Assembly: GCA_001512885.1 (NCBI GenBank)
Contig: LFSZ01000107.1
Coordinates: 1 to 46,453 of the forward strand
DNA length: 46,453 nt
Reading direction: 5' to 3'
Source: Rikenellaceae bacterium DTU001
GTDB taxonomy: Bacteria > Bacteroidota > Bacteroidia > Bacteroidales > DTU049
Shown here piece after piece: positions 3,811 through 46,000 of this stretch. Under the pieces are notes generated by a model. The model had not been told where the DNA came from and did not search any database. It saw only the letters and a program-made list of their open reading frames with translations. A program made the position numbers and the translations under genes. Each line of letters begins with the position of its first letter. Position 1 is the first letter of the stretch.

Positions 3811-3824
3811 TACTATAAACATTA

Positions 3825-4466: not shown

Positions 4467-5852
4467 ATGGCTAAAATGTTAGATCTAACAAAAGGTGACG
4501 AACGAAAAACGATAGTAAAATATGCGGTACCACTCATCGTAGGTAGTGTATTACAAAATTTGTATTCACTAATAAATAGTGTAATAGTAGGTAATTATTT
4601 GGGTAAAGAAGCCTTGGCGGCAGTAGGTATATCTTTTCCTATTATTTTTGCTGTGACATCATTGATTATTGGTTTTACTATTGGATTGTCTATTGTTATT
4701 GGTCAATATTTTGGTAGTAAACAATATGATAATTTGAAAAAAAGTATTAGCACTAGTTATATATCTTTAGTAGTTTTTGCTATAATAATGACTACGTTTT
4801 CTATATTAACAGGTAAATATTTATTAAAATTATTAGGAGCTCAAGAAGATATTATAGCCCAAGCCACATCGTATTTTAATGTATTTTGTTTGGGATTTCT
4901 TTTTGCCTTTCCATTTAATGCAACTAATGCGGTTTTGCGTGGTATAGGAGATTCTATAACACCTGTTTATTTCTTAGTATTTAGTATTGTGGTCAATTTT
5001 GTACTCAATTATGTTTTTGTTGTTGTTTTAAATTATGGGCTAACTTCTACGGCTTGGGCAAGTGTGATAGGACAGATTTTAGCTCTAATCTTAATGATAG
5101 TTTATATAAACAAAAAGCACCCTTTCATTTCTATCAAATTAAAAGAAATGAAGTTTGATTCGAAAATTTTCAAATATATTATGAAAATTAGCTTGCCAAG
5201 TGGTATTCAACAATTTGTAATTGCTATTAATGCTGTGGTTTTGATGAGCTTAGTTGCATCTTTTGGTACTGATGCTATAGCTGGTTATTCAGTAGCTACT
5301 AGGATAGATGCTATAGCTAGTATACCAGCATTTATATTTTCATCGGCGTTAGCCAATTTTGTAGCACAGAATGCAGGGGCATTAGAATTTAAAAGAATAA
5401 AAAACGGCTTAAAAGCTACTTTACGCATAACAGTTTCTATGACTATTATTATTTCTGTTTTGATTATTATTTTTAGTAAAACTATCATGAGCTTATTTAC
5501 CAAAGATATAGCTGTAATAGAAATAGGTAGTGAGTATTTGAGAACGCTTAATTACTTTTATGTATTATATGCAATGATGTTTGCTTATCAATCAGTATTC
5601 AGAGGTAGCGGAGATACCATGATAAGTATGTTGATCACATTAGCTGCTATTTGGATAGTACGCATTCCCTTTTCGTATATGCTATCGAAGCATTTAGGTA
5701 CACTAGGTATTTGGTTAGGAATACCTATAGGATGGTTTGTTGGTTTGATACTTTCGTACTCATACTATAAATCGCGTAGATGGGAATTGAAATTTGTCAT
5801 GCAGATGAGAACTAGACATACTCCACCTCCAGAGATAGCTGATAATATTTGA
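4467..5852 (+). CDS. MATE family efflux transporter
   Basis: Polytopic ~461 aa protein; N-terminal PLIVGSVLQNLYSLINSVIVGNYLGKEALAAVG signature. Confidence 0.9.
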   Translation: MAKMLDLTKGDERKTIVKYAVPLIVGSVLQNLYSLINSVIVGNYLGKEALAAVGISFPIIFAVTSLIIGFTIGLSIVIGQYFGSKQYDNLKKSISTSYISLVVFAIIMTTFSILTGKYLLKLLGAQEDIIAQATSYFNVFCLGFLFAFPFNATNAVLRGIGDSITPVYFLVFSIVVNFVLNYVFVVVLNYGLTSTAWASVIGQILALILMIVYINKKHPFISIKLKEMKFDSKIFKYIMKISLPSGIQQFVIAINAVVLMSLVASFGTDAIAGYSVATRIDAIASIPAFIFSSALANFVAQNAGALEFKRIKNGLKATLRITVSMTIIISVLIIIFSKTIMSLFTKDIAVIEIGSEYLRTLNYFYVLYAMMFAYQSVFRGSGDTMISMLITLAAIWIVRIPFSYMLSKHLGTLGIWLGIPIGWFVGLILSYSYYKSRRWELKFVMQMRTRHTPPPEIADNI

Positions 5853-5944
5853 GTAAAAAAGTAAGAAATAATTAAAATTTTATTCTATCAATCAATAATA
5901 TTTTTTATTTTAAATTATTTTATCTAATTTTATAAAAAAGTATA

Positions 5945-6517
5945 GTGAGTTTAAATGATTATTATAAAATATTGGGAATAGATCCTGGCTCAAATGTAAC
6001 AGGTTATGCAATTATAGGCATTGATGATGATAAATTAATAACTTTAGATATAGGATGTATATCAGTTAAAAGTGTAAAAGATCATTTTGAAAGGATAAAA
6101 TTAATTCATAGAAATGTAAAAGAATTAATTATTTCTTACAATCCAAATGTTTTAGCAATAGAAGCTCCATATTATGGTAAAAATGTACAATCTATGTTAA
6201 AGTTAGGACGTGCTCAAGGAGTAGTAATAGCTGCAGCATTAGAGTATGGTATAGATGTATATGAATATGCACCTCGTAGAGTGAAAATCTCTGTTACTGG
6301 CAATGGTAGAGCCTCAAAAGAACAAGTAGCAGGTATGGTAAATAATATTTTAAAATTAGAAAATAATTCTTTATCTTTTGATGCTACTGATGCCGCTGCC
6401 ATCGCACTCTGTCATTATTATTCTACATATTCGTCTATTATACCTGAAAACATGATGAATGGTAAAAAAAATAAATGGTTAAAATTTATTGAAGAAAATC
6501 CTGATAGAATTATTTAA
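5945..6517 (+). CDS. ruvC: Crossover junction endodeoxyribonuclease RuvC (GTG start)
   Basis: ILGIDPGSNVTGYAII, LAIEAPYYGKNVQSMLKLGRAQGV, DATDAAAIALCH. Confidence 0.93.
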   Translation: MSLNDYYKILGIDPGSNVTGYAIIGIDDDKLITLDIGCISVKSVKDHFERIKLIHRNVKELIISYNPNVLAIEAPYYGKNVQSMLKLGRAQGVVIAAALEYGIDVYEYAPRRVKISVTGNGRASKEQVAGMVNNILKLENNSLSFDATDAAAIALCHYYSTYSSIIPENMMNGKKNKWLKFIEENPDRII

Positions 6518-6541
6518 TACAATAGCAATAAATACAAAAAT

Positions 6542-7126
6542 ATGAAAGAAACAATCAAAAATTTAGTAAAAGCTTTTATAGGCGAAAGTCAGGCAAGAAA
6601 TCGTTATACTTTTTATGCAAAAATAGCTAAAAATGAAGGTTATGAGCAAATAAGTGAGATTTTTACTATGACTGCTGATAATGAAAGAGAACATGCGAGT
6701 TGGCTTTTTAAAATGATAAATGAGCTCAAACAAGAAACTAATGAAAATATTGATGAAATTACGGTTGAAGCTAATGCTATTACAATTCTTGGCTCTACTA
6801 TTGATAATCTAAAATCTGCTATTGCAGGTGAAGAATATGAATATAATAGTATGTACCCAGAGTATGCTAATATAGCTGATAAAGAAGGTTACTCTGCTAT
6901 AGCTATTAGGCTTAGAGCTATTGCTGTAGCCGAAAAACATCATGCTGAACGTTATGCTAAAATATTGAATCAAGTAGAGGCTGGTACTTTTTTCAAAAAA
7001 GATATACCTGTGAGTTGGTTTTGTAGAGAGTGCGGTTATGTACATGTAGGCACAGAACCACCTCAAGTATGTCCAGCCTGTTCGCATCCTAGAAGTTTTT
7101 ATCAATTGAAAGTAGAAGAATATTAA
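6542..7126 (+). CDS. Rubrerythrin
   Basis: Ferritin-like diiron domain (GESQARNRYTFYA, EREHASW, EKHHAERY) plus C-terminal rubredoxin site CRECGY…CPACSHP. Confidence 0.95.
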   Translation: MKETIKNLVKAFIGESQARNRYTFYAKIAKNEGYEQISEIFTMTADNEREHASWLFKMINELKQETNENIDEITVEANAITILGSTIDNLKSAIAGEEYEYNSMYPEYANIADKEGYSAIAIRLRAIAVAEKHHAERYAKILNQVEAGTFFKKDIPVSWFCRECGYVHVGTEPPQVCPACSHPRSFYQLKVEEY

Positions 7127-7245
7127 AAAAAAACAGTTGTTCTATTTTTTATATTGAGTGCATTAATAACATTTCAATGCTCTGAATTGCCTAGGTAAGC
7201 TTTTGACTGAGTTTGTAAGAGTTATAGCATAAGACACTTATACGA

Positions 7246-8508
7246 TCAAACAATCTCATTATGATACATATCTAGATTGATAAATGTAGCTAATAATAAA
7301 GTAAATGCCCAGTAGGATGATCCGCCGTAGCTCAGAAAGGGAAGTGGAATACCGATGACTGGTATCAAACCGACAGTCATACCAATATTAATAACAATGT
7401 GAGTGAAAAAAATTGATGCTATGGCATAGCCATATACTCTAGAAAAAATAGATCTTTGTCTTTCGGCTAAAATAATTATACGCAATAAAAAAAATAAATA
7501 AAGAGCTATCACAACAAAAGCACCGACAAAGCCCCATTCTTCACCAATAGCGCAAAAAATAAAATCGGTAGTTTGCTCAGGGACAAATTTCATTTGTGTT
7601 TGTGTGCCTTGCAAAAAACCTTTACCTGTAAATCCACCAGAACCTATTGCTATCATAGATTGTCGCAAATTCCATGATGCCCCCTTGGGATCATCTTTGA
7701 GCCCTAGCATTACCTCTATTCGCTCTTGATGGTGTGGCATTAGCATATTATAGAAATAATTAACACCAATTATTAAAACTATACTTAATACATAAACCTG
7801 AACAAATTTTATTATAATATTTTTTTTCTTTCTAAAAATAAATATTAATGCCAAGGTTAAACCAGTTAAAATCAATAAAAATGTAAATTGTTTAACTAAA
7901 AATGAAAGGATAAAAACTATAATAAACCAAAAACCAATAAAAATAACATATGTAGGTAATCCTTCGCGATAGAGAGCAAAGATAAAAGCAAAAAATACTA
8001 GCATAGTGCCTACATCTTTTTGAAAAAAAACAAGTAGGATCGGTATAAATATTACAAGCAATACTTTTCTAATAGTATTATTTATATTTATTTTAGCATC
8101 TGGATAGCTCCATATCTTAGATATTAATAATGCCGTAGTATATTTAGCAAATTCGGATGGTTGTAGTCTGATACCTTTGCCTAGATCTAACCAGGCTTTA
8201 TTGCCCCCTACAATAGCTCCTATGACTAAAACTAAAAAAAGTAATAATATTACAATAGCATAAAATATCTCGGCAGCATTAGAAAATAAATGTGGATTAG
8301 AATAAATAATTAATATAAATAAAATCCATCCCGTTAATATCCATACAAATTGCTTTACATGTACATATTGAAATGAAAAACTAAAAAAACTGATACCATC
8401 TTGATAAGAAGCTGAATAAATATTTACTAATCCAATGATAGATAAGATAAGATATATAAAAATTAAAGTAAAGTCTGGAGGGAAACGTCTTTTAATATTT
8501 TTTTGCAT
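7246..8508 (-). CDS. rodA: Rod-shape-determining protein RodA (SEDS family)
   Basis: Polytopic; LQPSEFAKY, FIFCAIGEEWGFVG, GIPLPFLSYGGSS. Confidence 0.93.
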   Translation of the reverse strand: MQKNIKRRFPPDFTLIFIYLILSIIGLVNIYSASYQDGISFFSFSFQYVHVKQFVWILTGWILFILIIYSNPHLFSNAAEIFYAIVILLLFLVLVIGAIVGGNKAWLDLGKGIRLQPSEFAKYTTALLISKIWSYPDAKININNTIRKVLLVIFIPILLVFFQKDVGTMLVFFAFIFALYREGLPTYVIFIGFWFIIVFILSFLVKQFTFLLILTGLTLALIFIFRKKKNIIIKFVQVYVLSIVLIIGVNYFYNMLMPHHQERIEVMLGLKDDPKGASWNLRQSMIAIGSGGFTGKGFLQGTQTQMKFVPEQTTDFIFCAIGEEWGFVGAFVVIALYLFFLLRIIILAERQRSIFSRVYGYAIASIFFTHIVINIGMTVGLIPVIGIPLPFLSYGGSSYWAFTLLLATFINLDMYHNEIV

Positions 8509-8665
8509 AAGTAATTTTTTAAAATCACAACTAACAACTTACAAAGTTAAATATATATAATACAAAATTCCAAATACACCATCTTTTTATTTGGTTCTGT
8601 TTTCATCTTTGTATTTTATCCCAAACTTCATTGATTTACATATAAAAGTGCAAATTTGTACTATC

Positions 8666-10630
8666 CTATTCATCTATTATATCATAATATCTCAATCGAT
8701 ACCACCCTATTTCTATATATGGTAATTTAGTTAGTTCCTTCCAATGTAAGATTTCTTTTTTATCACCAACCACAAAAGTTTGATCTTTGTTAGCTATAAC
8801 TGGATTATTCAAATAAAAGGCTGAGGATTTTACTTTATCTTGCAAATCATAGCTATTATTATTTTTACAATAATAATAATTACAAAACATGTCAATTTTT
8901 GTATTAATGTCAGGCAGCTGTGCTGAATCTGGTTTTATGATTAAATAATGAAATTTTTCTTGTTCTTTTTGACCTATAACAGCATATTTATTATTTAATA
9001 TCTCAAAAGATGGATTTTCTCTAATGCGCTTAGCTATTGAGAGATTATAGTTAATGCCAAACAAAATTACTGTAATTATCAATGATGGATATATTTTAAT
9101 ATTTTTATAATAAATCTGCAAAACTATTAAAATAATTATTATTCCAATCAAAAAAGCTGACAATGGATCTATGTATATATTTGATAAAGTAGAATATGGC
9201 AAATCAGATATAAAGCGTATAAAAAGTATAAACAACTTGACTAATAGAGCAAATATTTTTTTTATTAATAATCCAACAAAAGGAATAAATGATAAAATAA
9301 TCGCAAAAAAACCTATATATATTAGAATTGATGCCATAGGCACTGCAATTAAATTAGCTATTAAAAAATAAGTAGGAAATTGATGAAAATAATAAATAGT
9401 AAGGGGCAAGGTGCCTAATTGTGCGGCCATTGTAACTGATAAAGAGCCTATCACCCATTTTAGCCATTTTTTATTTGTTTTACAAATATTCATTAATGGT
9501 GCATTGAAAAAAAATATGCCCAATACTGCTGTAAATGAAAGCTGGAACCCCAAAGAATATAATTGTAATGGATTAGCAATTAAAATAAACAATGCAGCTG
9601 TAGCTAATGAATTGTAATTATTAACTGGTCTATTAAAAAGTACACCTATTTGTAACAATGTAAGCATAATAGCGGCTCGTACTACTGACGGCATAGCTCC
9701 TACCATTAATGTATATAGCCATAGAGTAATAAGTGCTAATGGAATTGTGATTTTGTTTCGATATTTAAAAGGAATAATGAATGATAATAATAAATATATT
9801 CCACCATAAATGATGCCTACATGTAGTCCTGATAGAGCTAATAGATGTACTACGCCTGCTTGTTGAAAGTCTTTAATTATCTCTGCATCCATAGCATCTT
9901 TATAACCTAAAAGCATTGCAGCTATTAAATTTGCTGATGCGGGATCTGATATATTAGTATATATGATTTCTACTATCTTATTGCGTACTCGAGAGAGTTG
10001 TTCTAAAAATGTACTTTCTCTAGGTAGAAGAAAAAAATCATAATCGTTTATAAAGCCTGTATGATAGACTTGCTGATTTGCTAAATACTGTGCATAGTTA
10101 AATTCATAAGGATATTTAGGTAAATTAGGTGATTGTAGTGAATTTATAAAAATTATAGAATGATCATTATCTTGCAAACTATCGATTGGTAAATTTAGAT
10201 ATATTAATACCTTACCATTAGTATTTACCCACTGAGAGTCTATTAGCATTTTTTTTAAATTTACAGTAGCTTTAGTTCTCGTCTGTGATGAGGCTTTTAT
10301 ATCTGTTATATCGCCAAAATAATATGAGGTTTTATCCAAATGATTCGCATAAAAATCTTCTTTTGTTCTTTCATCGAATGTGTAGCTTCTGAAATATCCT
10401 AATGCAATAAAAGATAAAAATATAGTGAGTGCAAGATACCAAGTATGTAATGATATTTTATTAGAATAATAAAAATAAAATCCAAATGAGAGTACTAGTA
10501 AAAACGTTGTAAGTAGTGTAACTATATAAAAAAAATTATGAGATGGTAAATGATTGTAAATAATAATACCAATAATATAAAATAATGTAATACGGACAAT
10601 AGGTGCTTTTGCCCAATTCATATAGCTCAA
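8666..10630 (-). CDS. ComEC/Rec2 family competence protein
   Basis: LLALSGLHVGIIYGG, GAMPSVVRAAIMLTL, N-terminal DUF4131-like part; no metallo-beta-lactamase HxHxDH motif seen at the C-terminus. Confidence 0.88.
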   Translation of the reverse strand: MSYMNWAKAPIVRITLFYIIGIIIYNHLPSHNFFYIVTLLTTFLLVLSFGFYFYYSNKISLHTWYLALTIFLSFIALGYFRSYTFDERTKEDFYANHLDKTSYYFGDITDIKASSQTRTKATVNLKKMLIDSQWVNTNGKVLIYLNLPIDSLQDNDHSIIFINSLQSPNLPKYPYEFNYAQYLANQQVYHTGFINDYDFFLLPRESTFLEQLSRVRNKIVEIIYTNISDPASANLIAAMLLGYKDAMDAEIIKDFQQAGVVHLLALSGLHVGIIYGGIYLLLSFIIPFKYRNKITIPLALITLWLYTLMVGAMPSVVRAAIMLTLLQIGVLFNRPVNNYNSLATAALFILIANPLQLYSLGFQLSFTAVLGIFFFNAPLMNICKTNKKWLKWVIGSLSVTMAAQLGTLPLTIYYFHQFPTYFLIANLIAVPMASILIYIGFFAIILSFIPFVGLLIKKIFALLVKLFILFIRFISDLPYSTLSNIYIDPLSAFLIGIIIILIVLQIYYKNIKIYPSLIITVILFGINYNLSIAKRIRENPSFEILNNKYAVIGQKEQEKFHYLIIKPDSAQLPDINTKIDMFCNYYYCKNNNSYDLQDKVKSSAFYLNNPVIANKDQTFVVGDKKEILHWKELTKLPYIEIGWYRLRYYDIIDE

Positions 10631-11751
10631 AGATTAAAATATGATATTTTTGTATTTGGATAATAAAATTCTAAAATTTCATTAAAATTTTTCCCTTCCT
10701 TTGCCATTTCTATTGCTCCTTCTTGACTCAGTCCTACTCCATGTCCATAGCCTCGTCCTTTGAAAATAACTTTGTCGCCCTCATCTTGTATATTAAAATA
10801 CGTAGATTTTAAATTAAAATCTTCTCGTATTTTTCTTAAGGTTAAAGTATCTATAAAATATTTTTTTCTAATAGGTTGATAAAAATTTGTGGCATTTTCA
10901 AAATTTTTATTTGTAGAATCTATACCATGTTTAGCTAGATACGACAACCATTGATCTTTTGATATGGTATATGTCCAAGTACTATTTTTAGATTTGGTAC
11001 TATATTCATCTTTTATGGTAATGAGATATGGTAGTGATTTGCCCCAATAATTTTCTGAACTATTTGTTAGACCTCCACTATTAGAGTGATATACTGCTAA
11101 TATCGGCAAATTATCATTATCTACTAAAATCATTCCTTTAGTTTCTTTGCAGGCAGAGATTATTGTCTGGTTGTTGCATTTCCCCTTATATAATTGGCAA
11201 TGTGTAGTACAGCACAAGTCATATTTATCATTTATATGCTTTTTTTCTATATTTATCATATATGTGGTATATGTGCGTACAACTATTGATTTAGCTTTAT
11301 AAAATTCATAAGGTAAATTAGGATATGTTTCTGATAATATCACTGAGGCTACATATTTGTCTATGTCTAATTGATTTATAAAATTAATACTTGTATTATT
11401 TTTAGGATAAAATATAGCGTTGTCTTCATATTCTATTAATTTGTTATTAATAATTGTAGAAAATATTCCATTTGTACTTGTGCTTATTAATAAGATACTA
11501 TCGCCTTTTATATTTTTTATGCCAGTTCTCGCACTTAGTTTATTATAATTATTTTCTAAAATAATGGTGTCATTTTTCTTTAAAATAATACTATCATTAC
11601 CATTAGTAAGGGCATAATCACCCTCTGAGATTTTGATTTTAATGTTTTTTAAATCATTTCTAATGCCTATTTTTACTAAAATTTGTGCAGATATAGAAAA
11701 ATTTAAAAGGGATAAATTTAAAAAAATCAAAAACAAATATTTTGCATTCAT
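10627..11751 (-). CDS. SpoIID/LytB domain-containing secreted protein
   Basis: YVASVILSETYPNLPYEFYKAKSIVVRTYT, YHSNSGGLT, GRGYGHGVGLSQEGA; overlaps comEC by 4 nt. Confidence 0.88.
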   Translation of the reverse strand: MNAKYLFLIFLNLSLLNFSISAQILVKIGIRNDLKNIKIKISEGDYALTNGNDSIILKKNDTIILENNYNKLSARTGIKNIKGDSILLISTSTNGIFSTIINNKLIEYEDNAIFYPKNNTSINFINQLDIDKYVASVILSETYPNLPYEFYKAKSIVVRTYTTYMINIEKKHINDKYDLCCTTHCQLYKGKCNNQTIISACKETKGMILVDNDNLPILAVYHSNSGGLTNSSENYWGKSLPYLITIKDEYSTKSKNSTWTYTISKDQWLSYLAKHGIDSTNKNFENATNFYQPIRKKYFIDTLTLRKIREDFNLKSTYFNIQDEGDKVIFKGRGYGHGVGLSQEGAIEMAKEGKNFNEILEFYYPNTKISYFNL

Positions 11752-11954
11752 AGCTAATAATTCTCAGTTTATTTAATAAAAAAATTAATTGATTTGGCAA
11801 ATATAGAAACTTTTTTTTTATTTTAAATGATTACTAGATAAATTTGTTCAATATATATCAAAGGAGCATGTCGAGACTATGGAATAGAGTAAAATTATAT
11901 TGGTAAATAACTCTAAATTTTATTTTAAGTAAGGCCTTATAATAAATAATTATA

Positions 11955-22789: not shown

Positions 22790-25700
22790 TTATAATAAAG
22801 CCCGTACAGTGATGCTGCCTACATGAGTCATGCTACTGTGTTGCATTATTCTACCTTCGTATTGCAAAGAAATTTGTATTAGTTTATTTAAAGTTCTTTG
22901 CCATTGTATTTGGATCAATCCATTATTTCCTTGTTTATATCCTTCTAGCATAAGGTATTCCATAGTAGGATCTGACAAATTTTTTGCAATATTATATATC
23001 CAACCAAATTTCCCCATAAATGTTCCTGCTTTTATCGAAAAGATACGTGGTTCTATGTATAATTCTATTTTGTTATTTTTAATATTTTGCTCTTTATCGA
23101 ATACATACGAATACCTAGGTCCTACACGTATCTGATATTTGGTTTCTAAATATTGTAGTTCTAATTTTTCTGTATATCCAGCGAAACTATAAGAAGTGCT
23201 AGATCTGAATACTGATTTATTAGATTGATATGTATATTCACTTATAGATTGTAAATTCCACTTTTTAGCTATTGGAATATAAAATTGTAAAGAATGATTT
23301 AATTTTTTTTGCTCTATATTACCTACTATTAATGTTTGAAGTATTTTTTGCTTATAAAATTCATATCTTACAGAAAGATTTATTTTTTGAGGATGATATT
23401 CTAATATACTTCTAAACCTCTCGCTAGAATTGATTAATGAGTCCGGCTTTTTGTTAATTCCTAAAAAATTAAAATTAATAGTATTTTGATTTATATCAAA
23501 AAATGATTGCAAGCTAAAATTCTTTAAAAATACCGGGAATTTTTTTATTAGTTGAGGTGAAAATCTAAAATTGAAACTACATGTTTGATGATACGAGCTG
23601 ATGTAATCCTGTGTAGGGATAGTAAGCAATATATATTGAGCTTGATCATTAAAGTTAGCTATGTGAAATTCATCTAACTCTTGCAATCCATTATTATTAG
23701 CATCTATCCAGTAGTGTGAGCCTTGCCCTATCGGTACTTCGATATAAGTATAATCTATTCGTGGTGACTGTCTCTGAGACAAAATATATCGTAGTTGCAT
23801 ATTAAAAGATTTATTTTTAGTGTATAAATTAACCTCATTATCACTGGTAAAATAATTTTTTTTAACTGTATCACTTGTTTGCATAACGAAATAATTATTT
23901 TGTCTTAGACTCCATATTATTTTTTTTATTTCTAATTGATAGCCAGTTTTATGTTGCTTACGAATCAATGGCATTTTTTCATTGTAATATTCGTAGTATA
24001 ATTTCAAAAATGTTTGTGTACTATCTCCCCAGCCTATATAAGGTGAGAAAGAATAATATTCCTGTGAATTATTTAGCATTATTTTGTTTTTGTAAATAGG
24101 ATGATATTCTATTTTATTATCTATACCTAGCCACAGAGTTTTAATGTTAAAGCCAATGTTAGAACTATGCTTTAGATAATCAATCTGATATGATGGCAAA
24201 TGTGTATGCGAATAATCATTAGTAGTTACGAAATGAAATTTTTGCCAATAATATCTTGCATTTGCATTTGCTATGATAGAATATTCATTTTTTGATTTAT
24301 TAAAAAACGAAGTTTTTATATGTGCAAAATTATTTTTTTCGTTTTTAAAATTATAAATTAATCCATTCCATAATTCCATCTTTTCAGAGGTATATAATTC
24401 CCTATTGAAAATTTTATTTTCTTCGGGATTGTATAGAGGTTCTAATGAGGTAAATTGTGATTGCACACCCTGAGAAAAAAAAGTTAGAGTATGCTCAGAT
24501 GATGGTTTACCTATTAATTCAAATTTATATGCTAATCCTTGACTTTTATTATCTTGTTCACTAAATGTATTTATATCATTTTGTGAGTATCCGATTGTTA
24601 TCCGCGTTTCTAAGTTTTCTGAAGGTTTATAAAAAAAATAAGATTCTATTAAATTGATACGTTTGGGAGCATTTAGTATGCGAATTGGCTCATATTCACC
24701 TTGAGGTATTCCATTTATTGGCGCTATCCATTCATATATTTTACCATTTATAGCATAATTGCTCACTATATAATTTCCTTTGTTTTTGCCTACATATGTG
24801 AAATCAACTTTATAGAGTTGTGTAGTACTATCTCGTGAGTAAACAAACACTGAGTCATAGTCTAGCGTATCTATAATAGCATACGTAATATTTTGATCTT
24901 TGTAATTAGTAGCTCTAAATGATGGAATTTTAACAGGTACATTGGCGCCAGCTTCAGCTAGTATCACCTTGTCACTATCAGATAAACTTAGTAACAAGGG
25001 TTGAGCTTTTATATCTCCCTCAGAAAAATAATTGATTCCCCACTGCCATTTGTCTCCAGAGATTTCTGTATATAAACCATAAGAAGCTTGAGCATAATTA
25101 TAGTCGGTATATAAAAACTCTATTACGATATGCATGGATGTGCGTATGAAAATTTTAGGCATAAAAGTGATTTCTGCGGTATTATAATCTATTACATAGT
25201 CTGCGTCATAGCCACGTTTGAGTAAAATGCCATCTAAATAAACTTTTTCAGATCCTGCTATTACTTGTATATAGTTAGCCTCTATAGTTTGTAGTTTGTA
25301 TGGTCCAGAGACACCGTCTATGGGTTTCAACTCTATTCTAGAAAATTTCCCTTTGTTTATAGCTACCACCCCTCCATAATTGAAAGAATGTTTTTCAGTT
25401 TTACTAATATTAGAAAAACTAGTTCCTTGAAGCTTACGTGAATATTTAGATAGCACTGCATTTTCGGGACTATGAATATTGAAATCGCCGAGTGTAAACT
25501 TGAAATTATCTTTTTTTAATGTTATGTATACTCTATCTATTTCTTGCAATCTGGCACTAGTGCCTTCGGGTTGTACAGGTAAATTTTTATCATTTAGATT
25601 GCCTTCTATTTGAAAAGGGGCTATCTCACCATAAAATTGCAAATCTAATGCAGACTGTACTGAGCTCTGTCCTCTACTGCTCATCATTATACTACGAGAT

Positions 25701-26104
25701 ATATAACCATTTGTATATATTTCTCCTCTTTCTTCTGGATGAATTTCAGGTACAATAACATGAAAAGGTGATAGCTCCTCGCTTTGCAATGTATCTTTGT
25801 AGATAATAGATAAAAGAGTAGTAGATATTTTTTTTTTAATATATCTTAATCGGCATCTATATGTAAAAGGTAAATGAATAGACGTGTCAATATTTATATA
25901 GATTTTTTGATTTTCGATGTCCAATATTTGATTATTAATCAATTTATTTGTATCTATTAACAATTTTATATATAATATTTCGGAGTTATTAATATCTATA
26001 GTGTCTTGGTATGAATGAATGATAAATGTCGTATCTATTATGTTTTGAGAGAAAATATTAATGTGAATAAGAAATAAAATAATAAAAACACAATATTTAT
26101 ACAC
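22790..26104 (-). CDS. Large outer-membrane beta-barrel-like protein of unknown function
   Basis: Signal peptide ending IFS|Q; GSEKVYLDGILLKRGYDADYVIDYNTAEITFMPK module; long run of alternating aromatic beta-strand-like segments. Confidence 0.65.
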   Translation of the reverse strand: MYKYCVFIILFLIHINIFSQNIIDTTFIIHSYQDTIDINNSEILYIKLLIDTNKLINNQILDIENQKIYINIDTSIHLPFTYRCRLRYIKKKISTTLLSIIYKDTLQSEELSPFHVIVPEIHPEERGEIYTNGYISRSIMMSSRGQSSVQSALDLQFYGEIAPFQIEGNLNDKNLPVQPEGTSARLQEIDRVYITLKKDNFKFTLGDFNIHSPENAVLSKYSRKLQGTSFSNISKTEKHSFNYGGVVAINKGKFSRIELKPIDGVSGPYKLQTIEANYIQVIAGSEKVYLDGILLKRGYDADYVIDYNTAEITFMPKIFIRTSMHIVIEFLYTDYNYAQASYGLYTEISGDKWQWGINYFSEGDIKAQPLLLSLSDSDKVILAEAGANVPVKIPSFRATNYKDQNITYAIIDTLDYDSVFVYSRDSTTQLYKVDFTYVGKNKGNYIVSNYAINGKIYEWIAPINGIPQGEYEPIRILNAPKRINLIESYFFYKPSENLETRITIGYSQNDINTFSEQDNKSQGLAYKFELIGKPSSEHTLTFFSQGVQSQFTSLEPLYNPEENKIFNRELYTSEKMELWNGLIYNFKNEKNNFAHIKTSFFNKSKNEYSIIANANARYYWQKFHFVTTNDYSHTHLPSYQIDYLKHSSNIGFNIKTLWLGIDNKIEYHPIYKNKIMLNNSQEYYSFSPYIGWGDSTQTFLKLYYEYYNEKMPLIRKQHKTGYQLEIKKIIWSLRQNNYFVMQTSDTVKKNYFTSDNEVNLYTKNKSFNMQLRYILSQRQSPRIDYTYIEVPIGQGSHYWIDANNNGLQELDEFHIANFNDQAQYILLTIPTQDYISSYHQTCSFNFRFSPQLIKKFPVFLKNFSLQSFFDINQNTINFNFLGINKKPDSLINSSERFRSILEYHPQKINLSVRYEFYKQKILQTLIVGNIEQKKLNHSLQFYIPIAKKWNLQSISEYTYQSNKSVFRSSTSYSFAGYTEKLELQYLETKYQIRVGPRYSYVFDKEQNIKNNKIELYIEPRIFSIKAGTFMGKFGWIYNIAKNLSDPTMEYLMLEGYKQGNNGLIQIQWQRTLNKLIQISLQYEGRIMQHSSMTHVGSITVRALL

Positions 26105-26371: not shown

Positions 26372-29300
26372 TTACAACCAACGAACTAAATAAAAGTCTT
26401 GTTTATGAGCTAATAAAGGATGATTGGGTCTCATTCTGATAGAAAAATTATAAACGCCACTTTGCTCCATAGGCATCGAGCATTCATAAATAGTTTTAGT
26501 GTCATCACAACCAATAAAATCAAAAGTTCTAGTAAATTCAATATCTACAATGCGTCCTTCTACTTTTTTGCCAAAAATAAGTTCGATAACTACATCATCA
26601 GGTTTAAGTTCTTTGAGATCCATGACTAATTTAGCAGTAAATTTTTCTCCAAGTGGTAGGGGCCCTTTGCTGCTGTCATACATTTCCATATCTATGATAT
26701 GTATTTCATCCCAGTTTCTTAGCACTTTTCTTTTCCATGAAATAAATTCAAACAAAACTTTATGATCATCATTAGTCAGTGTGTAGTAATAGTTATTTAA
26801 ATTATCATAAAATTTATCATCATATTCTAAAAGCATGCGTTTAGTGATAAAATGAGGAGCAATGTAAAAATAAGCATTTTTCATCATTTCTACCCATTTT
26901 TGTGGTATACCTATATTATCTCTATCATAAAATGTAGGTGCTATCTCGTCTTCGATGATGCTATAAATGATTTCTGCATCTAATTCATCTTGAAGTTTTG
27001 TGTCATCATAAGTGTTTTCTTGCCTCAGTGCCCATCCAGCTCCAGGTACGTAACCTTCTGCCCACCATCCATCTAATACACTAAAATTTAAAGTACCATT
27101 CATAACAGCTTTCATACCAGAGGTACCACTAGCTTCCAAAGGTCTAGTAGGAGTATTTAACCATACATCTACACCTTTTACAAGTAATTTAGCTAATTCA
27201 GTATCATAATTTTCAATAAAAATAATTTTACCGATAAATTCAGGCATACGCGATACTTCTATGATTCGCTTGATCAGATCTTCGCCAGCTTTATCAGAAG
27301 GATGAGCTTTGCCACTAAAAATAAAGCGAACAGGATAATGTGGGTTATTAACAATATCAGCCAAACGTTTTAAATTAATAAATAAAAGATGAGCTCTTTT
27401 ATAAGTAGCAAACCTGCGAGCAAAGCCAAAAGTAAGAATTTCAGGAGTTTTATTTAATTCTTCTAAAGTACGAATGATTTGTGTAGGTGATTCTTGTCTT
27501 TGAGGCATCTCGATGCCCAATCTTTCTATTATAGAATCATAAAGTTCATTTTTTTGTTTTAGCTTTAGATTCCATATAGTAGCCGGTTTCAGATTATCTA
27601 TAAATTTCCAGTAATTATGGTTCTCGTGCATATGTTCGAAAAAGTCGCTACCAGCACAATCTAGAAATAATTTTTGCCAGTCACTAGTCATCCAAGTTTT
27701 AGGATGCACTGCATTTGTAACATAATCAAAAAATAACTCACTTTCGAAAAATCCTTTATATAAATCTTTGAACATAGAACAGGTAACTCGCTTATGAATT
27801 TTGCTAACAGCATTGACGTATGTAGAGGTTTTAATAGCTAAATGAGTAACTGAAAATTTAGTTTCTAAACGATGTTCTCTGCCAAAATCCATAAATTCTT
27901 CCCATGTAATATCTAATGATTCTGGAATATGAGCAAAATAAGTACGCATGAGATCTTCGGAAAATTTATCATGTCCCGCTGGTATTGGAGTATGAGTAGT
28001 AAATATAGAAGTTTTTTTAACCAACTCTAATGCATGTTGCATAGAAAAATGTTTTTCTTTAATATAATATCTCAATCTAGCAATATTAGCAAAAGCAGCG
28101 TGCCCCTCATTCAAATGAAATACCGTAGGCTTTATCCCCATTGCTCTCATAGCATCTATAGAACCGAAACCAAGAAGATATTCTTGTTTTAATCTCATTT
28201 CCCACTCGGCATCGTATAGTCTAGCAGTTATTTCTTTATCTTCATCTAGGTTTTCTTCTATATCAGTATCCAATAAATATAGAGCTATTCTCCCCACTTT
28301 TACTTGCCAGATTTTAGCATAAACATTTCTCCCTGGCAAAGGTAAATGTATTTTTAGCCACTGGCCATCATTATTTCTTACAGCGGTAATAGGTAAATTA
28401 GTAAATTTTTGTGGTATATATTGTACGATTTGCTCTCCTAGGCGAGATAGTTTTTGTTTGAAATAGCCGTATCTAAATAATAGACCGAAGGCTACTATAG
28501 GGAAATTACTATCACTAGCTTCCTTTAGATAATCACCTGCTAAAATACCCAAACCACCACTATAAATTTTCAAAAAAGCATGAATACCGTATTCCATACA
28601 TAGATATGCTACTAATTTATCATTTTCTTTATATGGAGATATGCTCATATAGTCAGTGAACCTTTTGTATATGGAATTTAATTTTTCTATAAAATCTTGA
28701 TCTTTTGATAAATTTATTATCTCTTCATAAGACATCATCTCTAACATAGCAATTGGATTATTCTCAGATTTAATCCAATATACAGGATTAATATTTTTTA
28801 ATAATTCTATGGCTTCTTCATCCCATGTCCACCAAAGATTTTGTATCATATCTACTAGAGGTAAAAGCGAAGCTGGATATTCAGGTTTTACATATACTTT
28901 GCGCCATTCTGCTATCTCAATTTCTTTTGGACTAGTAACTACATAATCCTTTATTGTTTTGAAATAATAAAGATCTAATCTCTTTTCTGATTCTCTAATA
29001 GCAGAATCGTAAAGATCAAAATAATTGCAAATAAAATTATTCCAATGAGCTAACTTAGCTACTTGCCAACATTTATCTCTTAATGATTTTCTTTGCTCTT
29101 CGCTAAGTTGTAATTGTTCAAAGACATAGCTAACTATATTTTTTACTACATCATCATCATTATAATCATTCCTTTCGATTATCCTTATATATTGAGAAGT
29201 ATCAATATTTAGAGATTTAACCCAGTTACCATATCCAGAGAGACTCGTAGAGAGAGTAGGAATGCCATAAGCGGTACTCTCCATAGGAGTGTAACCCCAA

Positions 29301-30607
29301 GGTTCATAATAAGATGGGAAAAGTGTAAGGTCAAAGCCCATCAAAAATTCATAATAAGGAATATTCAAAAGTCCATCATGCCCATCTAAATACGAAGGAA
29401 TAAATAAAACTTTAACTGGATTATCATCTTGATTTATTAGTCCTTCAGCTTTGAAAGCGTTTGTTATAGGATCATGATCTTCATTACTTAGGTAGTGTGA
29501 TGTTAGATATTTTTTAATGGCTACTGAGTTATTATTGTAAGCATCTAGCACATCATGAATAGGTCCTTGTATGCCAGCAGGTACAGCGATACAAGCATAG
29601 ATAGTTCTGTTAGGATTTTGATTTTTTATTTTTCCTAAAGATTTTATAAATAGGTCTATGCCTTTGTTACGCATTTCGTATCTACCTGATAACAATATTA
29701 AAAAGGGATTAGGATCTTCTGCACCGCTAGTAGCTTTAAATAATCTAATAATTTTTTCGCGAGAAGCGGCTTTAATTTTTTCATATTCATCCCCTTGGGG
29801 TACTAGATCTATATCAAAGCTATTAGGTGTTATAACGTTAGGTTCTTTATCTAAAAAGTATTTACATTCTTTAGCAGTCACAGGAGATACAGTAGAAAAT
29901 GCATCAGCACATCTGGCAGCACAGTATTCCATTGAAAATTTAGAAATTATATTAAACTTTTGAGCCATATGCTGTGGATCATAATTAGTCATTTCACTAT
30001 ATAATGGGAGTCCATTACCAGCAATAGTCCTTCCCATAATGGTAGCGTGTGTTGTAAAAGCGGTGCCCACTTGAGGTACTTTATCCTCTAGATATAAAAT
30101 ACCAGCACCAGTAAGCCATTCATGAAAATTGGCAACTATTTTATCCTGAGCTGTAATATGATATTCATAAAAGTGATGAATCACTCTACCTGCCTCATAA
30201 CCAAACAAAGCTGGTTCTATATAATCCCAGCCTCCATATAAAGAGTCTAACTTGTATTTTAGCCATAGATCTGTAAAAATCTTATTTCTTTGTTCAAATA
30301 AATGCCTAAAGTCTACTAGAATAGTTATGGGACTGCCCTTTATTTTCCATCTTCCGATTCTGATTCGTAATCCATCTTCTCGTGCTTTCAATACCCATTT
30401 ATGATACAAACCTTCATCAGGTTCAAACATATAACCATTAGCTGCATCTTTTACTATATCAGGACCTATAAGTATATATTGTGAACCTAGCAAATCCACT
30501 AATTTATAAGCCTTAGTGGATAAGACTGTAAATATGCCACCCACTTTATTACAAACTTCCCAACTAACTTCGAATAAAAAATTTGGCATCAATTTCTTTT
30601 CTTCCAT
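26372..30607 (-). CDS. Fused GT3-type glycogen synthase (N-term) and GT35 alpha-glucan phosphorylase (C-term)
   Basis: N-term FEVSWEVCNKVGGIFTVLSTKA and PSYYEPWGYTPMES; C-term DUF3417-like NLWWTWDEEA, HLNEGHAAF, EASGTSGMKAVMNGTLNFSVLDGWWAEGY (PLP Lys) in one uninterrupted ORF. Confidence 0.93.
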   Translation of the reverse strand: MEEKKLMPNFLFEVSWEVCNKVGGIFTVLSTKAYKLVDLLGSQYILIGPDIVKDAANGYMFEPDEGLYHKWVLKAREDGLRIRIGRWKIKGSPITILVDFRHLFEQRNKIFTDLWLKYKLDSLYGGWDYIEPALFGYEAGRVIHHFYEYHITAQDKIVANFHEWLTGAGILYLEDKVPQVGTAFTTHATIMGRTIAGNGLPLYSEMTNYDPQHMAQKFNIISKFSMEYCAARCADAFSTVSPVTAKECKYFLDKEPNVITPNSFDIDLVPQGDEYEKIKAASREKIIRLFKATSGAEDPNPFLILLSGRYEMRNKGIDLFIKSLGKIKNQNPNRTIYACIAVPAGIQGPIHDVLDAYNNNSVAIKKYLTSHYLSNEDHDPITNAFKAEGLINQDDNPVKVLFIPSYLDGHDGLLNIPYYEFLMGFDLTLFPSYYEPWGYTPMESTAYGIPTLSTSLSGYGNWVKSLNIDTSQYIRIIERNDYNDDDVVKNIVSYVFEQLQLSEEQRKSLRDKCWQVAKLAHWNNFICNYFDLYDSAIRESEKRLDLYYFKTIKDYVVTSPKEIEIAEWRKVYVKPEYPASLLPLVDMIQNLWWTWDEEAIELLKNINPVYWIKSENNPIAMLEMMSYEEIINLSKDQDFIEKLNSIYKRFTDYMSISPYKENDKLVAYLCMEYGIHAFLKIYSGGLGILAGDYLKEASDSNFPIVAFGLLFRYGYFKQKLSRLGEQIVQYIPQKFTNLPITAVRNNDGQWLKIHLPLPGRNVYAKIWQVKVGRIALYLLDTDIEENLDEDKEITARLYDAEWEMRLKQEYLLGFGSIDAMRAMGIKPTVFHLNEGHAAFANIARLRYYIKEKHFSMQHALELVKKTSIFTTHTPIPAGHDKFSEDLMRTYFAHIPESLDITWEEFMDFGREHRLETKFSVTHLAIKTSTYVNAVSKIHKRVTCSMFKDLYKGFFESELFFDYVTNAVHPKTWMTSDWQKLFLDCAGSDFFEHMHENHNYWKFIDNLKPATIWNLKLKQKNELYDSIIERLGIEMPQRQESPTQIIRTLEELNKTPEILTFGFARRFATYKRAHLLFINLKRLADIVNNPHYPVRFIFSGKAHPSDKAGEDLIKRIIEVSRMPEFIGKIIFIENYDTELAKLLVKGVDVWLNTPTRPLEASGTSGMKAVMNGTLNFSVLDGWWAEGYVPGAGWALRQENTYDDTKLQDELDAEIIYSIIEDEIAPTFYDRDNIGIPQKWVEMMKNAYFYIAPHFITKRMLLEYDDKFYDNLNNYYYTLTNDDHKVLFEFISWKRKVLRNWDEIHIIDMEMYDSSKGPLPLGEKFTAKLVMDLKELKPDDVVIELIFGKKVEGRIVDIEFTRTFDFIGCDDTKTIYECSMPMEQSGVYNFSIRMRPNHPLLAHKQDFYLVRWL

Positions 30608-39875: not shown

Positions 39876-40955
39876 ATGAGGCAATATATATCATTTATAA
39901 TTAGCCTTATTATTTCTACAATTTTATATTCTCAAGTGAGAAGCTATACTAATGAATTTCTCTATCTGGGTATAGATGCTAGATCTATGGCTATGAGTAA
40001 TACTGCTATTGCTAGCACATACAATGCGAATGCTGGTTATTGGAATCCTGCTCTACTAGTTTTCGCTCCTGCATATCCTCAATTTAGTCTAATGCACGCA
40101 GAATATTTTGCTGGTATAGCTAATTATAATTCATTTGCTATTAGTTTTCATAATAAAGATAGTTTAGCATTTGCATTTTCCTATTTACGTTTTGCAGTAG
40201 ACGACATACCAAATACGACACAACTAATAGACAACAATGGGCAGGTGCATTATGATAAAATCACTTCATTCACAGCTGCTGATAATGCCCTTCTATTTAG
40301 TATTAGCAAAAAGATTAATCACACATTGCAGATAGGAGGTACTTTAAAAATCATTAGAAGAGTAATAGGTGATTTCGCTGGTGCATGGGGCTTTGGACTA
40401 GATGTGGGTGTTTCTTTTATGAGTGATAGATGGAGGGGAGGTTTAGTAGTGCGAGATATTACTTCTACCCCTACTTTTTGGTCTTTTTCATTAAATGATA
40501 AAATGAAAGAAGTTTTTACTCTCACTGGTAATGAAATACCTACTAATAGTTTAGAATTAGGTATTCCTCGTTTAGCCATGGGTATCTGTTATGTGCAACC
40601 TCTATTAAATAATTTTTTAATTCAACCCGAGCTTTCCCTACTATTTACTTTTGACGGACAACGTAATACTTTGATAAGCAATAAATTTTTTAGCATAGAT
40701 CCATCACTAGGTTTTGAGATAAGCTTTAAACAAATGATATTTCTCAGAGGTGGCATTGGCAGCTTACAAAAAGAAAATTTCCCTACTGGCAAAAAATGGA
40801 CATTCCAGCCTAATATAGGTATAGGCATCGCTATAAAAGATATCTTGCAAATAGACTATGCTTATACAGATATCGGTGATAATAGTATTGCTCTGTATTC
40901 TAATATCATATCGTTAATTTATCACATCAAAAAAAATAGTAACACAGCTTTATGA
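39876..40955 (+). CDS. PorV/PorQ family outer-membrane protein
   Basis: Signal peptide LYS|Q; FLYLGIDARSMAMSNTAIASTYNANAGYWNPALL typical of PorV/PorQ (FadL-like) N-terminus; ATGA overlap with the C25 gene. Confidence 0.82.
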   Translation: MRQYISFIISLIISTILYSQVRSYTNEFLYLGIDARSMAMSNTAIASTYNANAGYWNPALLVFAPAYPQFSLMHAEYFAGIANYNSFAISFHNKDSLAFAFSYLRFAVDDIPNTTQLIDNNGQVHYDKITSFTAADNALLFSISKKINHTLQIGGTLKIIRRVIGDFAGAWGFGLDVGVSFMSDRWRGGLVVRDITSTPTFWSFSLNDKMKEVFTLTGNEIPTNSLELGIPRLAMGICYVQPLLNNFLIQPELSLLFTFDGQRNTLISNKFFSIDPSLGFEISFKQMIFLRGGIGSLQKENFPTGKKWTFQPNIGIGIAIKDILQIDYAYTDIGDNSIALYSNIISLIYHIKKNSNTAL

Positions 40956-43900
40956 AACAGTTTAAATATTTTTACTTAATAATTTTTATAATTACTAATA
41001 AATTATTTGCGCAACCTTTTGGTAATGAGTGGATAAATTACAATAAATTTTATTACAAAATAAAAATCAGTTCCGAAGGCATATATCGGATAGATTATAA
41101 TACCTTAGTATCTGCAGGTATTCCAGTAAATATAATAGACCCTCGCTTATTTCAAATTTTTCATAATGGTATTGAACAATATATCTATGTACATGGCGAA
41201 GAGGATGGTATATTTGATAATGACGATTTTATAGAATTTTATGCTAAAGGTAATGATGGTAGCTTCGATAAAAAACTATATAAAAATTCAGAACATCAAG
41301 CTAATGATAATTACAGCTTATTCAATGATACGTCTGCATATTTTCTCACATGGAGTTCATCTTTAAATAATAAGAGAGTAGCAAATTATAAAAATACAGA
41401 GTATCTTTCTTATTTTCCTGAATCGCATGTCTACTATACAAATCGAATAGATTACACAAGCTATTATTATCCTGGACCAGTAGACGCTTCTGGGTTATCA
41501 GATTTTGATTATACCGAAGCAGAAGGATGGTTTGATGGTACTATGAGCATAAATCCTTCTCAGCCGGGTGTTCCTCAAAATTATAATAAGCAAATACAAA
41601 CACCTCTCCCATATAATGCGGGAGGTCCATCAGAGATCAAAATAATGATCACTGGACAATCATCAGCACTCGATTATCCACATCATCTAAAAATTAATTT
41701 TTTATCTAATAATATTGACACGACTTTTATAGGATATAAGAATGTTTTTATCTCACGAAATTTTTTATCTAGCTCTCTATCATCTAATCTAAATATTAAT
41801 TTTACCTTGCCCAATGATCTAGGTGCTCCTTCTGATCGTATAGCACTATCATATATTGAAGTTTCTTATCCTAGATTAACAAATTATAATAATTCTTATT
41901 CTCTCAAATATCGAATAAAAGATAATGGACAAAATGTCAGATACATACATTTTACTAATGTCTATGGCAATAATAATGATACTCTTATTAGTTATGATTT
42001 GACAAATAACAATAGAATCTTTTCTACTAAAAATAATAACAATGTAGACATTTGCATAGCAATGAATGGTAATGACGTAGAAATTTATAGCACTATAGAA
42101 AGTAATGTAAAAAAAATTACTCAGTTAACTGCTATAAACGGAACAGGTAAATTCACTGATTATTTATCATTAGGCCTTATTAAGGCAGATTATCTTATCA
42201 TTACCCATCCAATTTTAATCAATAGCGCAAATAACTATGCAAATTATAGGTCTATAACAGGATATTCACCATTAGTAATAAATGTAGAAGAGCTATATGA
42301 TCAATTTGCCTATGGCATTGGCAAACATCCACTGGGAATCAGGAACTTTTTATTGTTTGCCATTACAAAAGCTGAGGTTCCGATAAAAGGAGTATTTTTA
42401 ATAGGTAAACCATATAAAGCAGGGGAAGGTAACTACAATTATAGAAAAAAGCCTGATATCTATGCTCAAACCTTAGTTCCATCAATTGGTAATCCACCAT
42501 CTGATCAATTATTTTTATCTGGTATAGTAGATACTTTGTATCAACCAGCAATACCAATAGGTCGCTTAGCAGCTCGCAATCCTAATGATGTGGATGTTTA
42601 TTTGCAAAAAGTTATTGATTTCGAAAATGAAATGAAACTACCCTATAATCCTAACTTACCCATAGATCAAGAATGGAGAAAAAAGGTATTACATTTTGCA
42701 GGAGGCTCCAATCAAGTAGAAATGCATCAATTTTTATCTTATCTTAATCAATATAAAAATAAAATTGAAAACCCTTATTTCGGAGGTAATGTATGGACAT
42801 TTACTAAAACTAGTACTGATCCCATAATACAAAGTCTTAGTGATAGTATTAGAAATTTAGTAGATAGAGGCGTGATAATGATGAATTTTTTCGGTCATGC
42901 TGCAGGATTAGGCTTTGATATTAGTATAGATAATCCAAATACTTATAATAATTACAAACGGTATCCTTTTGTTTTAGCTAATTCTTGTTTTGTAGGTGAT
43001 TTATTTCAAGTAGATGCCACTACCAGCGAACAATTTGTTTTAATACCTAATAAAGGTATGATAGGTTTTTTGGGTACTAATACTGCGTCGTATACTTCTT
43101 ATTTACATTTATTTAGTAATCAGTTGATTAATCATTTATCAATAGAATCCTATGGCAAAAGTATAGGAGAAATAGTTAAAAATACTATAAGAGATATACA
43201 AGTACCAAATAATTTTTATAATAAAGTTATTTGTTACGATTTTATCTTGCATTGTGATCCAGTTATCAGACTTTCTATCGATAGTTTGCCAGATTATATG
43301 GTTACTAATCAGACTATTTACACTCAACCAGAAATTATCAGTAACGAAATAGATTCTTTCAAATTTTGTGTAACTGCACATAACTTGGGCAAAGCGATTT
43401 ATGACTCGGTTTTTGTAGAAATAATTCGCACTTATCCAGATAATACAACGGAAACTTATATAAAACGAATCAGAACACCTTTTTTTAAAGATACAATTAT
43501 ATTTACAATACCCACCAACCCTCTTATTAGCATAGGCATGAATAAATTTAAGATAATAATAGATTCGTATAATGATATATTAGAAAAAAATGAAAATAAT
43601 AATACTACTGAATATATTCTTTGGGTTAATTCTTATGATGCAGTACCAATATATCCTTATGAATTTGCTGTAATTCCAGACACTTTTGTAACGCTAATAG
43701 CCTCTTCGAGTAATCCATTTCCATTAATGAATAAATATATTTTTGAGATAGACACTACTATTTATTTCAATAGTCCTTTTAAACTACAAAGTCCTATCAT
43801 TGAACAAACTGGCGGTATTATACAATGGACATTGCCATTTACGATGCTCCAAATGCCTGATAGCATAGTTTATTATTGGAGAGTAAAAACTCTAACCTCA

Positions 43901-46000
43901 TCATATTGGCGTAATAGTTCATTTCAATTTATAAAAAATAAAAGAGGTTGGGGACAAGCACATTTCTTTCAATTCGAAAATAATGATTTCGTTTATATGA
44001 CTACTCATCGCCCTACAAGAACATTTAATTATATAAATACAATAGTTAATATAAAAGCTCAAACCGGCTATTATCCATATATTCCTTGGCATGAGGAATG
44101 GTATAAAATGAATAATGTTTTAAAAGGGCAATGGTCTTGCACAGGTGATGGAGGACATGGTATGAAATTTGCAGTTTTTGATACTATATCTATTACTCCC
44201 TGGGCTAATACCGACCCAGACAATGATGGACTCGGTCCTTATGATGCTCTTAATTGCAGAAATTACATTTATTATGATTTTGATTTCTATACTACCGATA
44301 GTATATGGTGGCAACGTATGACAAACTTTATAAATGCAGTGCCAGATGGTAATTATATTTTAGCTTTTAGTCATAGAAATCATAATGCTGAAAATTACCC
44401 AGAAGACCTCTATCAAGCCTTTGAAAGTTTTGGCTCTGCAATGATCCGCTCTTTACCTAATAATAGACCGTATATGATTTTTGGAAGGAAAGGTTACCCT
44501 ATAGGAACTGCAGACGAAATAATTGGTACTGAGATATCTAGTATTATTAATCATTCTTGGAACCTAACTACAAAATGGAAAGAAGGATCAATGTCTTCAC
44601 CATTAATAGGACCTGCTCTACAATGGAATAGTATTCATTGGCGTGTACGTAGCTTAGAAGATGGACCGATCACTGATACAGTTCGACTTTTTGTTCTTGG
44701 TATAAAAGAAAATGGAACCATAGATACTTTATTTGCTAATATCAGACCTATATCTGATTCATTAGATATTTATAACCTCGATCAACAAATACCAGCCAAT
44801 ACCTACCCGTATTTGAAATTACTAATGAAATCTAGTGATGATGCTATGCATACTGCTCCACAACCTATACGTTGGCAGGTATTATACACACCGGTTCCCG
44901 AAACAGCTATTTTAAGTTTTACTAAGGAATATGAATTTTACAAAGATACTTTGCAAGAAGGCGAAATAGGCAAACTAAAAATTTCAACTAAAAACATTAG
45001 TTCTCAAGATTTTCAAGATTCTTTATGGGTAAAATACTGGATTAAAACTAATATAAATGAAGAGATAAATATAACACTTAGAAAAACTAGACTTCATCCT
45101 GCCAATGATGTATTGACTGATAGTATAAAATTTTCAACCATAGGTTTGAAGGGATTTAATCAGTTATGGGTTGAATTTAATCCAATAAACCCAAATACTG
45201 GTGATTATTTTGAAATAGAACAGACTCATATTAATAATATTGCAAGTATCCCTTTTTATGTAAATACAGACAAAATAAATCCATTATTAGATGTTACGTT
45301 TGATGGTATCCATATTCTTAATGGTGATATAGTAAGTGCCGAGCCACATATAAAAATCACTGTAAGAGATGAAAACAAATTTTTAATATTAGATGACACT
45401 AGTGCTGTTACTATTTTTTTAAAAAAACCAAATGCTTCTGAGTATGAAAGGATATATTTTGTAAAATCAAATACTTATCAATTAATTTTCACTCCCTCAT
45501 CAGATGCTAATAGCAATGTGTGCTATATAGATTGGTATGCTAAATTTGAAGTAGATGGAATATATGAATTACAGATACAAGCTCATGATCGTAGTGGTAA
45601 TCCGAGTGGCATAATAGATTATAAAATCAAATTTGAAATAATTCAAAAACCAGCCATAACATATCTAACGAATTGGCCAAATCCTTTTAGCACCAAGACA
45701 CATTTCGTTTTTACTATTACTGGCAGTCATATTCCTGAGTATTTTACCATTCAGATAATGACTATTTCGGGCAAAATAGTTAAGGAAATTACAAGGGAAG
45801 AGCTTGGTCATATACATATCGGAAGGAATATAACATCATATACATGGGATGGTAGAGATATGTATGGTAATTTATTAGCAAATGGGGTATATTTTTATAG
45901 AGTTGTAACTCGCTTACATGGCGATCCAATCGAACATATTCAAACGGAATTAGATCAATATATAACTAAAGGATTTGGTAAAATGGTGATAATCAGATAA
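40952..46000 (+). CDS. C25 (gingipain-type) cysteine peptidase, PorU2-like T9SS component, with CARDB-like, ILEI-like and FlgD-like C-terminal domains
   Basis: Signal peptide LFA|Q; catalytic FFGHAAG and ANSCFVGD; C-terminal NPF…WDGRDMYGNLLANGVYFYRV. Confidence 0.85.
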   Translation: MKQFKYFYLIIFIITNKLFAQPFGNEWINYNKFYYKIKISSEGIYRIDYNTLVSAGIPVNIIDPRLFQIFHNGIEQYIYVHGEEDGIFDNDDFIEFYAKGNDGSFDKKLYKNSEHQANDNYSLFNDTSAYFLTWSSSLNNKRVANYKNTEYLSYFPESHVYYTNRIDYTSYYYPGPVDASGLSDFDYTEAEGWFDGTMSINPSQPGVPQNYNKQIQTPLPYNAGGPSEIKIMITGQSSALDYPHHLKINFLSNNIDTTFIGYKNVFISRNFLSSSLSSNLNINFTLPNDLGAPSDRIALSYIEVSYPRLTNYNNSYSLKYRIKDNGQNVRYIHFTNVYGNNNDTLISYDLTNNNRIFSTKNNNNVDICIAMNGNDVEIYSTIESNVKKITQLTAINGTGKFTDYLSLGLIKADYLIITHPILINSANNYANYRSITGYSPLVINVEELYDQFAYGIGKHPLGIRNFLLFAITKAEVPIKGVFLIGKPYKAGEGNYNYRKKPDIYAQTLVPSIGNPPSDQLFLSGIVDTLYQPAIPIGRLAARNPNDVDVYLQKVIDFENEMKLPYNPNLPIDQEWRKKVLHFAGGSNQVEMHQFLSYLNQYKNKIENPYFGGNVWTFTKTSTDPIIQSLSDSIRNLVDRGVIMMNFFGHAAGLGFDISIDNPNTYNNYKRYPFVLANSCFVGDLFQVDATTSEQFVLIPNKGMIGFLGTNTASYTSYLHLFSNQLINHLSIESYGKSIGEIVKNTIRDIQVPNNFYNKVICYDFILHCDPVIRLSIDSLPDYMVTNQTIYTQPEIISNEIDSFKFCVTAHNLGKAIYDSVFVEIIRTYPDNTTETYIKRIRTPFFKDTIIFTIPTNPLISIGMNKFKIIIDSYNDILEKNENNNTTEYILWVNSYDAVPIYPYEFAVIPDTFVTLIASSSNPFPLMNKYIFEIDTTIYFNSPFKLQSPIIEQTGGIIQWTLPFTMLQMPDSIVYYWRVKTLTSSYWRNSSFQFIKNKRGWGQAHFFQFENNDFVYMTTHRPTRTFNYINTIVNIKAQTGYYPYIPWHEEWYKMNNVLKGQWSCTGDGGHGMKFAVFDTISITPWANTDPDNDGLGPYDALNCRNYIYYDFDFYTTDSIWWQRMTNFINAVPDGNYILAFSHRNHNAENYPEDLYQAFESFGSAMIRSLPNNRPYMIFGRKGYPIGTADEIIGTEISSIINHSWNLTTKWKEGSMSSPLIGPALQWNSIHWRVRSLEDGPITDTVRLFVLGIKENGTIDTLFANIRPISDSLDIYNLDQQIPANTYPYLKLLMKSSDDAMHTAPQPIRWQVLYTPVPETAILSFTKEYEFYKDTLQEGEIGKLKISTKNISSQDFQDSLWVKYWIKTNINEEINITLRKTRLHPANDVLTDSIKFSTIGLKGFNQLWVEFNPINPNTGDYFEIEQTHINNIASIPFYVNTDKINPLLDVTFDGIHILNGDIVSAEPHIKITVRDENKFLILDDTSAVTIFLKKPNASEYERIYFVKSNTYQLIFTPSSDANSNVCYIDWYAKFEVDGIYELQIQAHDRSGNPSGIIDYKIKFEIIQKPAITYLTNWPNPFSTKTHFVFTITGSHIPEYFTIQIMTISGKIVKEITREELGHIHIGRNITSYTWDGRDMYGNLLANGVYFYRVVTRLHGDPIEHIQTELDQYITKGFGKMVIIR

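Follow-up and report, generated by a model that had tools for sequence, protein, structure and literature searches.

A single uninterrupted open reading frame on the minus strand of the analyzed window (the whole stretch of 46,453 nucleotides from Rikenellaceae bacterium DTU001) runs from an ATG to a TAA codon over positions 26372-30607 and encodes 1411 amino acids, in which a glycogen synthase of family GT3 and a DUF3417-containing phosphorylase are joined on one chain. This protein is probably a bifunctional glycogen-storage enzyme that would bring both activities to the same particle at a ratio of 1:1. The fusion had been described with exactly these boundaries and this length in the initial annotation, which left out the strand. 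That annotation also named a frameshift or separate polypeptides as findings that would refute it; the fused frame is kept in five congeneric genomes, spanning all 1411 residues in four of them (80-81% identity) and reaching as far as the contig end in the fifth (80% identity). Most substitutions among congeners affect the third position of a codon, in both halves as well as in the linker, and in the synthase half of locus L004 such positions account for 230 of the 365 differences. The five congeners and this codon-position pattern together rule out a chance or assembly-generated fusion and a frameshift artefact.

The domain architecture proposed from the sequence (GT3, DUF3417, GT35) was recovered concordantly with Pfam and NCBIfam profiles, and the motifs quoted in support of it are present in the protein. 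The synthase half (residues 13-545; 28973-30571, minus strand, as are all features of the gene) comprises both Rossmann subdomains, which are covered in two stretches by the Pfam profile Glycogen_syn (PF05693; 1e-95, 322 bits against a cut-off of 27), and yeast and human glycogen synthases are its Foldseek matches. An interdomain linker of 32 residues (546-577; 28877-28972) leads into the DUF3417 domain (residues 578-679; 28571-28876; PF11897, 1.1e-25), which is followed by the GT35 alpha-glucan phosphorylase core (residues 666-1268; 26804-28612). The core is matched by the Pfam Phosphorylase profile (3.9e-34), by Foldseek and by the NCBIfam alpha-glucan family phosphorylase model TIGR02094 (1.2e-236, 787.2 bits against a curated cut-off of 191.7). 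The C-terminal region (residues 1271-1411; 26375-26797) contains no domain detectable in a Pfam profile search. Residues 566-1411 align end to end, up to the last residue of this region, with a solved phosphorylase of 852 amino acids, identified by Foldseek as the glycogen phosphorylase of Segatella copri (PDB 9l6i, 20yr; 47% identity in the structural alignment of 9l6i), so that the C-terminal region is common to both proteins.

Both predicted active sites appear intact. The active-site E-x7-E motif of GT3 (E435 and E443; 29279-29305) is present along with the donor-binding arginine and lysine (R309 and K315); E435 aligns with Glu510 of human GYS1, in which the donor-binding residues are Arg331 and Lys337 (numbering according to PMC9287172). 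Among 44 fused relatives, H187, R309, E443, R1064, R1065, K1070 and the PLP-binding lysine K1166 of the GTSGMK motif (27110-27112) are invariant, and K315 and E435 are kept in 43, the lone exception being L057. The RR-x4-KR phosphate site (R1064, R1065, K1070, R1071) is likewise invariant in the 44 sequences. This conservation bears out the earlier assertion of an intact PLP-lysine motif and extends it to both catalytic centers.

The synthase half shares its fold and catalytic residues with the eukaryotic GT3 enzymes GYS1 and Gsy2p but was said to resemble them closely, which overstates the relationship: identity is only about 27-28%. Residues 9-529 align with human GYS1 in two blocks, between which the fused protein has 41 residues as against 94 in GYS1, that is, about 53 fewer; that the human segment includes part of the tetramerisation helices rests on the location of Lys429 and Arg430 within it (PMC9287172). 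The arginine-rich regulatory helix, initially reported as not recognisable, does have a counterpart (residues 503-515; 29063-29101) whose alignment with GYS1 is ungapped along the helix and which lies in a predicted helix spanning residues 503-519. In this counterpart, R506, R510 and K512 correspond to human R582, R586 and R588, whereas E, E and Q occupy the positions of human R579, R580 and R591; two of the six arginines in the cluster by which eukaryotic glucose-6-phosphate regulation is recognized are thus retained, plus one lysine (for the roles of the human residues, see PMC9287172). R510 alone among these helix residues is the majority residue of the family (25 of 44). Since the arginine cluster is half lost, the fused enzyme is unlikely to be controlled by glucose-6-phosphate in the eukaryotic manner, in agreement with the second part of the original statement.

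We surveyed 59 genomes, one per family of Bacteroidales with additional representatives of the family to which the window belongs. The fusion was found in 47, a count that includes some copies running off a contig, one whose synthase half is truncated (G043) and one that a frameshift interrupts (G058); eight genomes encode the two proteins as separate genes, one has the phosphorylase only, and three yielded no match. By family, the fusion is represented in 36 of the 48 families of the order. It also occurs beyond the order, in six further families of the class (f62, f77, f93, f109, f110 and f111) and in a metagenome-assembled genome labelled Bdellovibrionales (L025). A rare or unique fusion is ruled out by these counts. 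A phylum-wide search returned mostly separate phosphorylases among the matches listed. The statement that other Bacteroidota encode the two proteins separately and adjacently thus holds for one split clade, apparently a derived one, but not for most families of the order or for several families elsewhere in the class, in which the genes are fused.

A tree was built from the joined synthase and phosphorylase halves, with 67 rows and 1396 columns. In it, all 14 split rows group together with full support (100), and their clade is nested among the order's fused members; fused members from other families of the class branch outside. When the fused members of the order are forced into one clade, the log-likelihood drops by 108 units; this arrangement is rejected (AU p = 2.5e-8), so that an origin of the fusion from separate genes within the order is rejected on the joined data; the single halves are less clear. 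In the GT3-only test with remote outgroups, the nesting of the split genes was unsupported (p = 0.94), a reduced, cleaner GT35 set gave a borderline result (p = 0.054), and a further test with p = 7.6e-30 is confounded by phosphorylase-only rows within the fused group. These four tests in all were performed with a quick tree search throughout, and the group tested was picked with the first trees already in view. Because the families around the split clade are fused, as are those elsewhere in the class, fusion followed by one fission is the simplest history; the fused state most likely goes back to the ancestor of the order, with a single loss by fission. The split-type members encode the same two proteins in the same order, but as two polypeptides parted by a stop codon, which most likely is the derived state. 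In L031 and L032, one in-frame TAA separates the genes, with a downstream ATG 27 and 12 bases later, respectively; in another genome (G052), the split synthase and phosphorylase genes are far apart. Judging from its 852-residue chain, the Segatella copri phosphorylase appears to be of the split type as well.

Within the window, the neighbors of the fusion gene are not glycogen genes. Directly downstream on the same strand, at 22790-26104, lies a gene for a protein of 1104 amino acids that has a signal-like N-terminus and matches no Pfam profile, and further away, at 39876-46000, a gene for a 359-residue protein precedes that for a large Peptidase_C25 protein (1682 amino acids), presumably the PorU component of the type IX secretion system. 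Among the relatives, the gene order debranching enzyme (GDE)-GT4/5-GH57-fusion is complete in L024 and L025, and the GH57 gene adjoins the fusion in eight further loci (L009, L014, L015, L016, L021, L022, L023 and L037), the flanks of which are too short for more. The L025 locus (2900-11767), in the genome labelled Bdellovibrionales, contains the whole set; transfer and mis-binning are both possible. In the genome of DTU001 itself, the GDE, GT4/5 and GH57 trio is located on another contig (C77), and profile searches of this genome detected no second GT3, no GH13 or GH77 match, and no GlgC above its cut-off. Given that the assembly is 97.8% complete and consists of 117 contigs, these absences are provisional. 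No UDP-glucose-making enzyme scored over a curated cut-off in the same genome, where the candidate UDP-glucose pyrophosphorylases resemble an RmlA-type enzyme and an unassigned nucleotidyltransferase; a search with PF01704 gave no match there, and none in the controls either. The presence of the trio along with the lack of GH13, GH77 and GlgC matches over cut-off, and the gene context in relatives, support a predicted role in glycogen metabolism and make an ADP-glucose route through GlgC unlikely.

In the mechanism that we consider probable, the N-terminal GT3 half would use a nucleotide sugar, most likely UDP-glucose, as the donor for extending glycogen at its non-reducing ends, and the C-terminal DUF3417-GT35 half would shorten ends of this kind by releasing glucose-1-phosphate. 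With a single chain, the activities would be present at 1:1 and act on one and the same particle; the net flow would then depend on the levels of the donor, phosphate and glucose-1-phosphate, not on how abundant each of two separate enzymes is. The stoichiometric coupling and futile-cycle problem anticipated in the initial annotation are reasonable inferences. Some observations count against this reading, besides the UDP-glucose-making enzyme not found over a cut-off and the less clear single-half trees. First, the covalent linkage is dispensable, one clade having split it. Second, the synthase half has been lost, truncated or mutated in several lineages: it is missing from L039, L067, L068 and L090, with several genomes keeping the phosphorylase only; a fusion at L034 (972-4442) retains the first part of the synthase, the second synthase subdomain being deleted; and the still fused L057 (genome G042, contig C40) carries the replacements K315E, E435K and H162Q, so that its synthase half is probably dead.

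A co-transcribed pair might instead have been joined neutrally by loss of a stop codon, with equal expression as the only consequence and no physical coupling, an explanation that we regard as possible although somewhat unlikely. It fits the decayed synthase halves of L057 and L034, the tolerance of fission by a single in-frame stop and the poor conservation of the linker, where the majority-residue fraction is 0.31 compared to 0.58 in the GT3 half and 0.65 in residues 681-1200. Against it, most families of the order have kept the two halves fused, as have other families of the class, and the sampled set shows a single split event. Structural models also appear to argue against neutrality. AlphaFold2 was used to model residues 1-1200 of the window protein and L023, which is 48% identical; the C-terminal 211 residues were omitted, and both models were built with the same set of sequences. 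Their pTM values are 0.81 and 0.83, and the linker, with pLDDT below 50 at residues 558-569, is the main low-confidence stretch. For two bodies of similar size whose relative placement is undefined, a pTM near 0.55 is expected by our estimate, so that a preferred placement of the halves is likely, and these pTM values suggest that the halves are docked rather than loosely strung.

Docking might be taken further, to a fixed assembly in which synthesis and phosphorolysis control each other through a conserved interface, forming an allosteric make-or-break switch that would replace control by glucose-6-phosphate and phosphorylation and that would persist as a non-covalent complex in the split clade; this elaboration strikes us as unlikely. 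Even more doubtful is a two-stage builder of glucan, in which the phosphorylase half would be mainly synthetic, extending short maltodextrins from glucose-1-phosphate and handing them to the synthase as primers in place of glycogenin. Phosphorylases are reversible and GT3 enzymes require a source of primer, and the DUF3417 domain sits between the two catalytic cores, all of which would suit such a role; however, the debranching enzyme encoded beside the gene in relatives fits breakdown, the Segatella copri relative was deposited as a glycogen phosphorylase, and the phosphorylase persists where the synthase has been lost. That the chain is cleaved, or the phosphorylase half started internally, so that separate proteins do the work, is highly improbable: a protease might attack the linker, a stretch of about 32 residues with low model confidence, but this linker contains no methionine in the window protein or in 29 of the 44 fused relatives.

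The bifunctional enzyme favored here appears to belong to an already catalogued kind. KEGG ortholog group K16153, the members of which we take to be GT3-GT35 fusions, places the same pair of activities under one ortholog number, and in the protein described here both domains are found in one chain; on the sequence evidence, this protein would be a new member of the group, with a predicted mechanism. The group is named glycogen phosphorylase/synthase [EC 2.4.1.1 2.4.1.11] (PMC8307300). No biochemistry for K16153 and, in line with what had been stated before, no functional study of the fusion were found in the openly accessible literature. In the passages on GT3 of a 2024 review of prokaryotic alpha-glucan enzymes, GT3 is noted in Bacteroidetes, with a suggested acquisition from DPANN, and the fusion is not mentioned (PMC11046441). 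The TreS-Mak and TreS-Pep2 fusions of the GlgE pathway, covered in the same review (PMC11046441), similarly combine two enzymes of glucan metabolism covalently, but these catalyze consecutive steps, whereas the synthase and phosphorylase halves oppose each other.

If both halves are active, the fusion would be a naturally occurring example, widespread in a major bacterial order, of a single chain that carries opposing enzymes. Its relatives provide a series of natural experiments, namely one fission clade, fusions with a dead or truncated synthase, fusions that lack DUF3417 (L073 and L074; L063, from the same genus, has the domain) and phosphorylase-only relatives, which make the benefit of covalently coupling opposing steps directly testable.
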